Assembly: GCA_034521445.1 (NCBI GenBank)
Contig: JAXHMM010000006.1
Location: 434,001-498,000 of the forward strand
Length of the DNA: 64,000 nt
Direction: 5' to 3'
Source of the DNA: Balneolaceae bacterium
GTDB lineage: Bacteria; Bacteroidota; Rhodothermia; Balneolales; Balneolaceae
The notes beneath the pieces were generated by a model. The model had not been told where the DNA came from. It worked only from the letters and a program-made list of their open reading frames with translations, and searched no databases. This document shows, one piece after another, positions 6,755-18,742 of the stretch (within the stretch, counting starts at the first letter, position 1; each line of letters starts with the position of its first letter). Position numbers and translations under genes: made by a program.

Positions 6755-8184
6755 TCAGTCGTCCGGGAAATCCGTCTTCTTGAGCTTGTTGCGTATGGTG
6801 CGGTCGGAGATCTGCAGCAGTTTGGCAGCCTCCTTCTGGTTGCCGCCGGTCCGTTCCAGCGCCTTCTTGATCATCTGCAGCTCCATCTCCTCGATGGGCA
6901 GCACGGGGATGTCGTTGATTACCTCCTGGGTGAGCGATTCGTCCACATTCTTGAAGAGGGGATTTTCAATGTGTTCCACTGGTGATCGGTATCGGAGCCC
7001 TGTGACATGATCACCCCGCGCTGGATGTAATTCTCGAGCTCCCGCACGTTACCCGGCCAGTCCTTCTTCTGCAGGCGGTCCATCAGCTCATCCGATACCT
7101 CCTTTTCCTCCATGTTGTTCTCCCGGCAGTACTTTGCAACGAAATGACGCTACCAGCAGGGGAATGTCTCCCGGCCGTTCACGCAGGGAGGGCATTTCGA
7201 TGGGAAAGACGTTCAGCCGGAAATAAAGGTCCTTGCGGAAATCACCTTCGGTGATGGATGTCGCCGATGTCGCGGTTTGTCGTGGAGATGATGCGTACGT
7301 CCACCTTGCGCGGTTTCTGGCTGCCCACGCGCTGGAATTCCTTTTCCTGGAGTACGCGCAGCAGCTTCGCCTGCAGGGAGATGTCGATCTCGGTCACCTC
7401 GTCCAGCAGCAGGGTCCCTCCGTCTGCTTTCGCAAATGCCCCCTCGCGGTTCTCGATGGCCCCGGTGAACGCCCCTTTCTCGTGTCCGAAGAGCGTGCTC
7501 TCCACCAGCTCGCTCGGCAGGTTGGCGCAGTTGATCTTGATAAAGGGCTGGTCGGACCGGTTGCTCTGCTGCTGGATGAGGGAGGCGTAGACCTCCTTCC
7601 CGGAGCCGCTCTCCCCTGGATCATAACCGGGGCATTGGTAGGAGCGATCTGCGGGAGAATGTTCAGCAGTTTCTGAATCGCGGGGTCCTCGCCCACGAAC
7701 CGTTGCGCCCCGGGCTCCTTCTCCTTTGCCTGGTCAACGGATGCCTCCTTCGTCTTGCCGTCTTCCGGAGACCTGGTCCTCCTCGGGCGGCAGGGTGCGG
7801 GCGTGGGCGTTGCCGTTTCGGCTTTTGAAATACTGGTTCACACGTGAGAGGAACTCCCGGCCGCTGAAAGGCTTGGTGATATAGTCGAAGGCGCCCTTGC
7901 GTATGGAGCGCACGGAGTGGCTGATGTTGCCGAAGCCGGTGATCAGTATGACGCCCGTTTCCGGGTAGTTTCGAAGCACGTGGTTGAGTACGTCGTCCCC
8001 GGTCATCTCGTCCATCTTGACGTCGGTGATGATCAGGGCAGGGCTTGCGCTCCTTAAGCTCCTCGATGGCTTGGGCCGGGTTCTGGTAGGCGTCCACCTG
8101 GTAGTCGTTCAGGGCCAGGTGTTCCTGCATGTAGTTCAGAATATGCGGGTCGTCGTCAATGACGAATATTTTCTCCTTCTTCAT
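6755..8184 (-). CDS. NtrC-family sigma54-dependent response regulator (frameshifted)
   Basis: Cytoplasmic activator of sigma54 promoters, about 475 residues. The order is: receiver domain (start [19 protein letters not shown]; phosphoacceptor Asp in a [11 protein letters not shown] context; Lys in ITKPFSG), AAA+ domain with GESGSGKE Walker A, GAFTGA loop that contacts sigma54, and GTLLLDEV Walker B, then GNVRELEN and a Fis-type helix-turn-helix ([18 protein letters not shown]). At least five one-base shifts break it, but every landmark is present. Its place between hook and filament genes suggests a FleR/FlgR/FlrC-like flagellar regulator. It converges on the TPR gene. Confidence 0.85.
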
Positions 8185-8357: not shown

Positions 8358-8825
8358 TCAGAGATCGCGGATTTCACGGCTGATCTTGTCGGCCACGTCG
8401 CGCACCACCGAGGGATTCTTCACCAGGTATTCGCGGTACTCGGGATTTAGGCTGCGCTCGCCTGAGGACTCGTCGATGCCGGGCATGGAGGAGAGCACGC
8501 TTTCCAGGGAGTCGAGATCCTTCTGCATAAGGTTGCCCACCTCCTGGTGAACTTCCTCGCGGTTGTACTCGCCCTGCTGGATCTTGCGTTTGATCTTCTT
8601 GAGGGAGGAAAGGGAGTCGGCCTCCAACTTGGAAAGCACATTACGTGCGAATTCCACCTCGCCCTTGAATTCGGGGCCGGAGGCGGTGAACGTGTCGGAA
8701 GGGCTGCCGGCCTTGGAGGAAGGCCGGGCGGAATCGGTTCCGCTCTTGGAGACGGGCTGCTTGTCCCGGGTCTTGCGAATACCCTTGTCGGGATAGCCGC
8801 CCTTGTTAACCTTGTTGATATCCAT
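8358..8825 (-). CDS. flgM: FlgM-like anti-sigma28 factor (candidate)
   Basis: 155 residues. The disordered N-terminal half (MDINKVNKGGYPDKGI) is followed by LSSLKKIKRKIQQGEYNREE, which resembles the FlgM sigma-binding helix pattern (K-x-I-x-x-G-x-Y). FlgM is usually 70-100 residues, so this one is long, with an extra helical C-terminus of about 45 residues. It starts 2 bases after the FliT-like gene and is thus in the sigma28-driven fliS-fliD operon, a sensible place for feedback on sigma28. It could instead be an unrelated flagellar chaperone; the match rests on a short motif. Confidence 0.5.
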   Translation of the reverse strand: MDINKVNKGGYPDKGIRKTRDKQPVSKSGTDSARPSSKAGSPSDTFTASGPEFKGEVEFARNVLSKLEADSLSSLKKIKRKIQQGEYNREEVHQEVGNLMQKDLDSLESVLSSMPGIDESSGERSLNPEYREYLVKNPSVVRDVADKISREIRDL

Positions 8826-8827
8826 AG

Positions 8828-9212
8828 CTAGCCATGCGATTTACGATCGATGATCCTGCTCCTGCCAGCGGACGTGGCGGAACGGTTGGCCAGGTATCGG
8901 TCCCTCGCCTTGCCGTGGCGCCCCACCTCTTTCAAAGCATCCATGCGGCTCTGCCGCAACATATGCAATTTTTTATTCAGATGCTTTTCAAGCGTTTCCA
9001 GCTGCTCGAAGAGAGCAGTAACCTCGTAGGTCTCCTTATCGTCAAGATCAGGGGGAAACTTAAACGAATCCTCCAGGAAGGCGATCTCCTCGGCCCGCTC
9101 GCGGTAGAGCCGCTCGATCAGGTCGAGTTCGGGATCCTCGCCGCGGAGTTCGTGCAGCAGGTCCAGCCCTTTCTTGTAGATGGTAGTCGAGGTGGGAGTA
9201 GAGGGTGCTCAT
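8828..9212 (-). CDS. fliT: FliT-like flagellar chaperone (frameshifted)
   Basis: Small helical protein of about 127 residues, starting MSTLYSHLDY and continuing after a one-base shift near 9185 as IYKKGLDLLHELRG, then two long charged helices (ERLYRERAEEIAFLEDSF; LFEQLETLEKHLNKKLHML). Size, helical make-up and position directly after fliD match FliT, the chaperone of the filament cap and a brake on flagellar class II genes. No single frame covers it, so it is easily missed. The stop is TAG at 8828-8830. Assigned mainly by context. Confidence 0.55.
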
Positions 9213-15987: not shown

Positions 15988-16014
15988 TTATCGTGGTGCC
16001 GATCACCCACCTTA
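15988..16014 (-). promoter_or_regulatory. sigma28 promoter of the four-gene flagellin operon
   Basis: Minus-strand TAAG (16011-16014), 17 bases, CGATAA (15988-15993), an almost ideal sigma28 promoter, preceded by an A/T run (TTAAAAAAAATTTAAGG) that could act as an UP element. It is 57 bases upstream of the flagellin 5 start. Confidence 0.82.
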
Positions 16015-16443
16015 AATTTTTTTTAATGACGGGCGTCCCTCTCACGGCACCGGCGTACATGCAGAAAGGGAAGGAGGGAGTCCGGCCGGCGGCGGAACCC
16101 GGCGCGACGCGCGGACTCTAGAAAGTAGAAAGTATATTTACGTAGACGTTTACACGTAATTACGGGTGGGGTCGCGCGAACAGGCATAGTGCTTTCTCGC
16201 TATTCAAGAGCAAAATACCCCGCTATATTTACAAAATATTACAAACATTAGAAGCAGCTAACTATATATTGTGAATTCCCGACTCAAGGAAAATACGTAG
16301 GGATAACAAATAGTACGTGAGTTCTGGGTAACTACAGAAGGCAGGAATGGAAACATCGCGGCTGTTACAATTTCTCTCCGCAGAAGGAGGGATGAGGGAA
16401 AGACTCACCTTCAGAACGGGAGCCCCGTTTCTCCAAGAGCCGT
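16015..16443. other. A/T-rich intergenic region between flagellins and kinase
   Basis: About 430 bases between the divergent flagellin operon and the histidine kinase. It contains A/T-rich, promoter-like stretches (TATATTTAC at about 16132 and 16222) and a short repeat GTAGAAAGTA-like at 16121-16136. A short open stretch with AGGAGGG right before ATG at 16392 reads only 31 codons and leads out of the kinase frame. No further gene is seen. Confidence 0.5.
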
Positions 16444-17596
16444 ATGCGCAAGGCCAGAAAGATCGAGTCTTCCGTGCACCTTTCTGAAGATTCCCTGGAA
16501 GAGCAGCTGGAGAAGCTACTAGCGCGCATCGAGGCCGAGGGGGGTGCATCTACCTGAGTACGGAAGAGGACCAGTGCGTCGTTGCCAGCGGGGAGGCCCC
16601 CGGCGCGAAACAGCTCATGGCCTTCGACGAGATGGTTCTCTTTTCGGGCAATCCCATTCTGGGCGAGGACCGCTATGTTCATCCCCTTTCGATAGACGGG
16701 CAGGTCATCGGCTACATCTGCCTGCACATGGACAGCGACCTCTGCACCGAGGACCGGCGCGAACTGATACAGGCCTACGCCATCATTGTTGCCCAGGAAC
16801 TGGAGCTGGTCCAGAACAAATCCATCCTGGAGCGTTTTTCCAACCGTCTGCTGGAGAAGAAAGAGAGCTGGAAAAAACCGAGCAGTATAACAGCAACCTG
16901 CTCAGCATTACCACACACGACCTCTCCTCCCCGCTGAATGCCGTTTCAGGTTACCTTGACCTGATGAACGACGCCCTGGAAGAGGATGGCGACCTGAGCC
17001 GTATTTTGGATTATCACCGGATGATCCAGTCGGGCATCAACGACATCTCCGACATGCTTAACCAGCTTAATGAGATCGCCAAGATTGAAAAGGGACTCGT
17101 ATCCCTCCATTTTACCAAGGTGGATCTCTGCTGGCTGATTGAGGAGACCTGCGACCTGCTTCGGCCCATTGCCCAGAAGGAGGACCGCCGCCTGGTTTAC
17201 GATGCGCCGGAATACCCGGTTTATGCGGAGGTGGATTTCGTGAAGCTCAAGCGGGTGGTATACAACCTCATATCCAACGGCATAAAGTACACCGGGGTGG
17301 GGGGACGGGTTGCGGTGTCCGTGGAAAATGGGGGTGACATGGCCCGCGTGGTGGTGGATGACAACGGCATCGGCATATCCGAAGACGACAAGGAAGCGAT
17401 TTTCGAGCCCTTCGTAAAACTGAACTCCAGCGGAAAGGACGGGCTCACCTCCAGCGGCCTGGGCCTGTTCATCTCTTCCTACTTCACCCGCCAGATGCAT
17501 GGCAAGATCAGCGTGGACAGTGTGGAAGGCCAGGGCAGCACCTTTATGGTTTCACTGCCCCTGGCCGAGGGTTTCCAGCAGTCCGTGTCTGCCTGA
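16444..17596 (+). CDS. Sensor histidine kinase (cytoplasmic, GAF-like; frameshifted)
   Basis: About 385 residues. A coiled N-terminus (SEDSLEEQLEKLLARIEAEG) leads to a GAF-like sensor part (CIYLSTEEDQCVVASGE, YVHPLSIDGQVIGYICLHM), then a HisKA/HATPase kinase: phosphoacceptor His in TTHDLSSPLNAVSGYLDLM, N box NLISNGIKYT, G1 DDNGIGIS and G2 GLGLFISS. No membrane segment is seen, so it senses an internal signal. Two one-base deletions (in the G run near 16540 and near 16868) split it. The ATG at 16444 is preferred because it needs no further shift; the ATG at 16392 is an alternative. It may serve the nearby NtrC-type regulator, which has no adjacent kinase. Confidence 0.78.
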
Positions 17597-17602
17597 TAAG
17601 AT

Positions 17603-18056
17603 TTACATGCGGTTTTGGAAGGTGTCGCCCTTGGAAACGGCCGCCATATGCTTTCCCTCGCGGTATCGTTTCATAAACGAGCTGTTTTCGCGAGCCCCGG
17701 AGGTACTGTTTCGTCCCACGGGAAGCAGGGTGGTAACTCCCCGGTGCCGGCGGAAACGACGAACCATGAAGCGGATTTCGCGTTCCCCATCCCGCGAAAC
17801 AGGTGTGCCATCTCTTCGTCAACGTCGTGATCCGCAACGATGAAGAGCGGGGCTTGTTCTTTGGGGGATTCCTCCTCATCGCGGTCCTTTCGCTGCCCTC
17901 CTCCGGGGAGGGATTGCCGTTGTTACCATACTCCGTGCGATCGGAGACCGGGTTTGTCGCATGGTCTCCCACAGCTGAGGCCGGCGCGGTGCCGGGAGCG
18001 GCCCGTTTGCCGGACAGTGAGGGTCTGGTCATATTTGAACTTCCGGTCAGGCTCAT
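17603..18056 (-). CDS. Unknown protein with sigma28 promoter (frameshifted)
   Basis: About 151 residues if two one-base shifts (near 17890 and 17795) are repaired. The N-terminal third is rich in Ser/Pro/Asn (MSLTGSSNMTRPSLSGKRAA). It is followed by EQAPLFIVADHDVDEEMAHLF, then a very basic segment (EIRFMVRRFRRHRG), VTTLLPVGRNSTSGARENSS, and FMKRYREGKHMAAVSKGD to the end. The basic region could bind nucleic acid or lipid. I do not recognise the family. A well-formed sigma28 promoter stands 31 bases upstream, so it should be expressed with the filament genes. It has no signal peptide or membrane segment. Confidence 0.55.
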
Positions 18057-18086
18057 GATCGCATATCATGTTGGGGTACGTTTAAC

Positions 18087-18113
18087 TTATCGAACCCTTC
18101 CGCGAAAAGCTTA
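18087..18113 (-). promoter_or_regulatory. sigma28 promoter of the unknown gene
   Basis: Minus-strand TAAG (18110-18113), 17 bases, CGATAA (18087-18092), the same architecture as the flagellin promoter. It points away from pyrR, toward the unknown gene starting at 18056. Confidence 0.7.
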
Positions 18114-18188: not shown

Positions 18189-18742
18189 GTGAAAAAAGCC
18201 AAAATTATGTCGGCCGAGGAGCTGAATCGCACCTACCTGCGATTCGCCCACCAGTTCCTTGAACCGCACGACGACCCCTCCAGGCTGGCCATCATCGGCA
18301 TGCAGACCCGGGGTGTGCCCATTGCCAAACGCGTGCTGTCCCACCTGCAGGAGTCCTTCGGAGTGCGTCCCGACTTCGGAATACTCGACGTGACCTTCTA
18401 CCGGGACGATTTTCGGAGCAAGCTCAAGATGCCCGGCGTGAAGGTCACCGAGATCCCCTTCGACCTCTACGACCGCGACATCGTGCTGGTGGACGATGTG
18501 CTCTTTACGGGTCGAACGGTGCGTTCGGCCATGGATGCCGTCATGGATTACGGGCGTCCCAACAGCATTCGTTTCTGTTGCATGGTGGACAGGGGCACCG
18601 CCAGCTTCCCATCTCGGCCGACTACGTGGGAATCCGCGTTCCCACCCACACCAACGAGGAGGTGCGTGTGAGGGTCCGTGAACTGGACGGGGAGGATGCC
18701 GTCTATGTTGTTGAAAACGCACAGGAGGAGTCCCATGGCTGA
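18189..18742 (+). CDS. pyrR: PyrR, pyrimidine regulator / uracil phosphoribosyltransferase (frameshifted)
   Basis: About 184 residues. Start GTG at 18189 (V-KKAKIMSAEELNRTYLRFA). The PRPP-binding loop DIVLVDDVLFTGRTVRSA is typical, as are GMQTRGVPIAKR and LDVTFYRDD. One shift near 18600 moves the C-terminus (ISADYVGIRVPTHTNEEVRV, ending ENAQEESHG) to another frame, which is normal PyrR sequence. PyrR binds pyr mRNA to control attenuation in Gram-positives and has UPRTase activity. No attenuator hairpin was found here. It overlaps pyrB by 8 bases. Confidence 0.9.

Follow-up and report, generated by a model that had tools for sequence, protein, structure and literature searches.

In a Balneolaceae genome we find, at the late end of a flagellar gene cluster, a gene for a small protein whose family is, as far as the tools used here show, undescribed. 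The gene, its sigma28-type promoter and its pairing with a histidine kinase gene are well supported, and the protein is likely to work as the partner of a kinase in flagellar or chemotaxis control. We assign a probability of roughly 0.4 to a more specific reading, in which it is a late-class flagellar protein peculiar to the order Balneolales that acts on or with its partner kinase and signals hook completion back to the flagellar or chemotaxis pathway; here we infer the binding, its target on the kinase, the sign and direction of the effect and the biochemistry. An earlier note, written from the letters of the window alone (the whole 64,000-nucleotide stretch analysed here), had suggested a cytoplasmic protein under sigma28 control, encoded next to a histidine kinase, that could be a new regulator of motility or an effector linked to the flagellum, and the reading frame, the promoter and the pairing described below support this in outline.

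A fast-evolving family of the order Balneolales

The gene lies on the minus strand at positions 17601-18056, with its ATG start at 18056-18054 and its TAA stop at 17603-17601. Its 151-codon frame is broken by two net one-base shifts, and two frame changes are needed to read it. An intact copy with 151 open codons is found elsewhere in the assembly, on contig C1 (L003:7478-7933, minus strand), which is 78% identical to the window in DNA over 1 kb around the gene and carries an identical promoter-like site at an equal distance from the ATG. A codon comparison between the two copies gives a dS of 0.80, a dN of 0.22 and a dN/dS of 0.27, as expected where purifying selection acts on a real protein. 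In the window contig, the kinase, response regulator and PyrR genes likewise have broken frames, while other copies of the kinase, the studied gene and PyrR are intact, which suggests that the shifts are sequencing errors and not decay; on the strength of these broken frames and the dN/dS ratio, we discarded pseudogene decay as an explanation. Contig C1 holds second copies of the flagellin array, the kinase, the studied gene, pyrR and pyrB. Given the duplicated pyrR and pyrB and the contamination rating of the assembly (3.84%), it probably stems from a sister species, or possibly represents a duplication.

Profile searches located relatives in 28 genomes from five families of the order. A single-protein search of the Balneolaceae returned only one relative, in G017, where the gene likewise lies between a kinase gene and pyrR; a profile of these two sequences led to G075, in which it is away from pyrR, yet beside a kinase gene. 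With the resulting three-sequence profile, we reached about 20 genomes of the order. A profile of 22 sequences had hits in 29 of the 245 genomes of the class, including a spurious one (G049, E = 0.0099, with internal stops). The members are only 11-24% identical to the intact C1 copy of the window's lineage; the family is thus fast-evolving, and most relatives are missed by simple searches. Nevertheless, a protein pattern is conserved across the alignment of 28 sequences. A continuous frame, on which the earlier note had staked its 151-residue protein of no recognised family, is therefore present in the C1 copy and kept in the homologs that the profile searches it proposed have brought to light. 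The basic patch that it had pointed out stands out in the lineage of the window, but the family alignment does not show it as a conserved feature.

In a phylum-wide sample, these searches yielded no credible member outside the order. The best scores there, E = 0.0026 with the 28-sequence profile and E = 0.0012 with the first profile, belong to longer unrelated or broken frames and were rejected. We found no match in Pfam, where the only hits were chance-level matches of single members to unrelated families, in NCBIfam, in PHROGs (two members tested) or among the solved structures of the PDB, and no close relatives in named genomes. A relationship to sigma factors, or mimicry of them, was considered because one member produced an E-value of 5.5e-4, and dropped after a comparison of the family profile with 30 FliA sequences gave a probability below 1 percent. 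An AlphaFold2 model based on 22 sequences predicts residues 1-64 to be disordered and to be followed by helices at residues 70-77, 79-88, 92-105 and 122-140, with pLDDT values of 70-80 in the helical blocks. A fold search with this model against the PDB had no hit, and its low global confidence (pTM 0.24) counts against the reading given at the outset.

Sigma28-type promoters and flagellated genomes

On the minus strand at 18087-18113, 30 bases ahead of the ATG, stands the sequence TAAG-N17-CGATAA (TAAG at 18113-18110, CGATAA at 18092-18087). The earlier note had described this site correctly except for its distance, which it gave as 31 bases, and the spacing of 17 bases is, as it had stated, that of the flagellin promoter at 15988-16014 on the same strand. 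Since the pattern TAAR-N15-18-CGATAA occurs 35 times in the whole genome and its reversed counterpart 18 times, a single site of this kind is no more than suggestive; what makes the promoter assignment strong is its conservation across homologs. Within 150 bases upstream, TAA-N14-18-CGATAA is present in 24 of the 29 gene copies, compared with a mean of 0.2 and a maximum of 2 copies in 300 dinucleotide shuffles, so that the promoter is conserved in most relatives, one of the points at which the earlier note had considered its proposal open to refutation. Among the other open reading frames of the same loci, 15 of 165 have such a site, eight of these being flagellin genes. The sequence TTTAAG-N15-17-CGATAA precedes nearly all flagellin genes in the genomes examined, and we take it as the putative sigma28 signature of the order. 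A FliA homolog is encoded about 8 kb from the window (G000:C6:425408-426073; 231 bits, above the cut-off), and with both promoter and sigma factor at hand, the gene is predicted to belong to the sigma28 (FliA) regulon. As side observations, four g3 genomes (L245, L246, L247, L248) encode close to the studied gene a protein of about 345 residues that looks secreted and also has a sigma28-type site upstream, and seven genomes of genus g2 (G001-G005, G007, G008) encode a FliA above the curated cut-off, with flagellin not found.

Flagellin was found in 35 of the 92 Balneolaceae genomes. The studied gene is present in 15 of these 35 and in none of the 57 others, an association with a one-sided p of 5e-8 that is not corrected for shared ancestry. 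The remaining 20 flagellin-positive genomes gave no profile hit. Ten of them, however (six of g4, three of g6, and G091; L293-L303), have an open reading frame of 119-157 residues flanked by a HisKA protein and by cheY, with endings such as R...Y......PKG..LD. By their position, we regard these small proteins as candidate, highly diverged members of the family; those of g4 lack the CGATAA motif, which again counts against our preferred reading. As for the organisms themselves, flagella have been observed in Balneola vulgaris (PMC5167729), and a description as non-motile exists for species of Fodinibius (formerly Aliifodinibius) that carry flagellar genes (PMC9909488).

The window covers the late end of the flagellar cluster, with FlgN, FlgK, an NtrC-type response regulator, an FlgM-like gene, FliD, FliS, the flagellin array, the kinase and the studied gene. 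The Pfam FlgM profile has no match in the 92 Balneolaceae genomes, and the studied protein resembles FlgM in being sigma28-dependent and, in the model, in having a disordered front and a helical back. It was therefore attractive at first to see in it a replacement for FlgM, i.e. a second anti-sigma28 factor that would limit the late genes and be released by the kinase-like partner. This idea was weakened by the FlgM-like gene, which we assigned by eye. It is a separate gene on the minus strand at 8358-8825, between those for FliD and the NtrC-type regulator; it has a sigma28-type site of its own at 9036-9062, is conserved in G017, G043 and G062, and its product is not matched by the Pfam profile either. 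With this gene present, the studied one is unlikely to be the missing FlgM. Its product also differs from FlgM in length (about 150 versus about 100 residues), and none of the 28 family members matches the FlgM profile, so that we consider an anti-sigma28 function very unlikely.

A convergent pair with a kinase gene

Tail to tail with the studied gene lies the gene of a soluble histidine kinase with HisKA and HATPase_c domains (16347-17596, plus strand; frame broken; intact copy at L003:6217-7470). The histidine kinase neighbour named in the earlier note is thus borne out, and its tie to the gene is stronger than that note could show, since the arrangement recurs: 24 copies in 23 genomes form such a convergent pair with a HisKA-domain gene, at a median gap of 10.5 bases and with two overlaps. 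With gene names assigned by eye, these pairs occur in at least four unrelated surroundings: beside pyrR and flagellins in the window and G017, beside cheY, cheX, cheA and cheR in G075, G062 and most of g3, in a sugar-enzyme cluster in family f56 (in several cases with flagellins), and beside flgB, flgC, fliE, fliF and flagellins in G446. When a pair is kept together across changing locations, this classically points to a functional link, and as the pairing persists here while the location changes, we assume such a link between gene and kinase. By contrast, adjacency to pyrR (18189-18739, plus strand, the divergent neighbor, frame broken) is not conserved in the family; within the Balneolaceae, the gene is found at pyrR only in the window's genus and in G017, and we abandoned a link to pyrR. 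In five gene-bearing genomes (G011, G347, G454, G466, G467), no kinase gene is next door, which counts against our preferred reading as well.

The pairing also bears on three other explanations. The protein could be a sigma28-dependent effector or accessory that is exported through the flagellum, of a similar kind to Campylobacter's flagellar co-expressed determinants. Its disordered first 64 residues would then represent an export signal, and its fast divergence and sigma28 control would be readily understood; the kinase pairing, however, would be incidental, which leaves its maintenance in different genomic places unexplained and makes this explanation unlikely. Alternatively, it could serve the filament stage in a structural role, as a chaperone or as an accessory of the motor, which its co-occurrence with flagellin and the flagellin arrays adjoining the gene in several genomes may suggest. 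We think this quite unlikely, given that FliS, FliD and FlgN have their own genes in the window and that the pair is also found away from structural genes, in chemotaxis and metabolic surroundings. Finally, the convergent layout itself could be the device, with the sigma28 transcript running antisense into the kinase gene and lowering kinase expression after hook completion. The short gaps and the two overlaps would fit such a device, as would the kinase genes of the pairs, which have no sigma28-type site upstream; but an antisense role needs neither purifying selection nor a protein pattern conserved in 28 sequences, and we regard it as a long shot.

Possible feedback through the phosphoacceptor domain

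Most of what is known about the control of flagella comes from proteobacteria and Bacillus, and we found nothing in the literature on flagellar regulation in the order Balneolales. In the known systems, flagellum-associated soluble kinases of the FlgS-FlgR and FleS-FleR type monitor assembly and drive sigma54-dependent genes (PMC7064773). Like FlgS, FleS and FlrB, which work with NtrC-type regulators (PMC7064773), the kinase of the window's lineage and of G017 is soluble, has HisKA and HATPase_c domains and is accompanied by an NtrC-type regulator in a flagellar cluster. In the window, this regulator (6758-8184, minus strand, broken frame) is the likely output of the kinase, a pairing that we infer; in G017, the paired kinase gene has the relative of this regulator as its direct neighbour. 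Unlike in these systems, the partner kinase here can lose its ATPase domain, as described below. We know of no dedicated sigma28-dependent, tail-to-tail partner in the FlgS, FleS or FlrB systems.

From the likeness to FlgS-FlgR and FleS-FleR, we propose a feedback from late to middle genes for the preferred reading of a late-class protein acting on its kinase. Completion of the hook would free sigma28, upon which the flagellins and the studied protein would be made together. The latter would bind the helical phosphoacceptor (DHp) domain of the kinase and change its output, by which the late flagellar genes would act back on the middle ones. In the window's lineage, the partner would be the cytoplasmic sensor kinase with the NtrC-type sigma54 regulator of the same cluster, while in lineages with the pair beside cheY, the protein may instead act on chemotaxis signalling. 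Should this hold true, the order would gain an assembly-feedback device of its own, with a late-class protein tied to a kinase. A comparable part is proposed for FliX of Caulobacter, which links assembly to the sigma54 regulator FlbD, a regulator without a cognate kinase (PMC7064773). FliX is likewise a small non-kinase protein proposed to pass the assembly state on to the sigma54 pathway; unlike FliX, the studied gene is paired with a kinase, and no family member matches FliX or another Pfam profile.

An intact kinase is not found in all lineages with the pair. While a phosphoacceptor motif is common to all partners, 14 pairs retain the Asp that follows the phosphoacceptor His, and in ten it has given way to Lys or Asn. 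In eight g3 genomes (L245-L247, L269, L271, L274, L276, L277), all with this change, the ATPase domain is wholly gone and only HisKA remains, in proteins of 130-142 residues; in G075, it is degenerate (HATPase_c 33.5 bits versus 78-95). A simple kinase inhibitor would not fit these partners, which is a further point against the preferred reading. At the same time, since the phosphoacceptor domain persists with the small protein where the ATPase domain is lost, and the eight g3 partners that keep this domain alone are still paired, it is this domain that we propose as the point of contact. There is precedent for this mode in Sda and KipI, small inhibitors of the Bacillus kinase KinA that act on the DHp domain of this soluble kinase; by analogy, the studied protein may do likewise, although we found no sequence relation to either.

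A bolder and more doubtful version sees in the pair a flagellar signalling module not described before. A dedicated partner would be bound at its phosphoacceptor domain by a protein made under sigma28; where its kinase function is lost, this partner could survive as a phosphoacceptor-domain adaptor, and the pair would have moved from the control of sigma54 flagellar genes to a place with the chemotaxis operon. If true, the partners would form a natural series from a full kinase to a bare phosphoacceptor domain, suited for studying how signalling proteins are repurposed. The partners also vary at their front, which has no described domain in the window type and a receiver domain in family f3.
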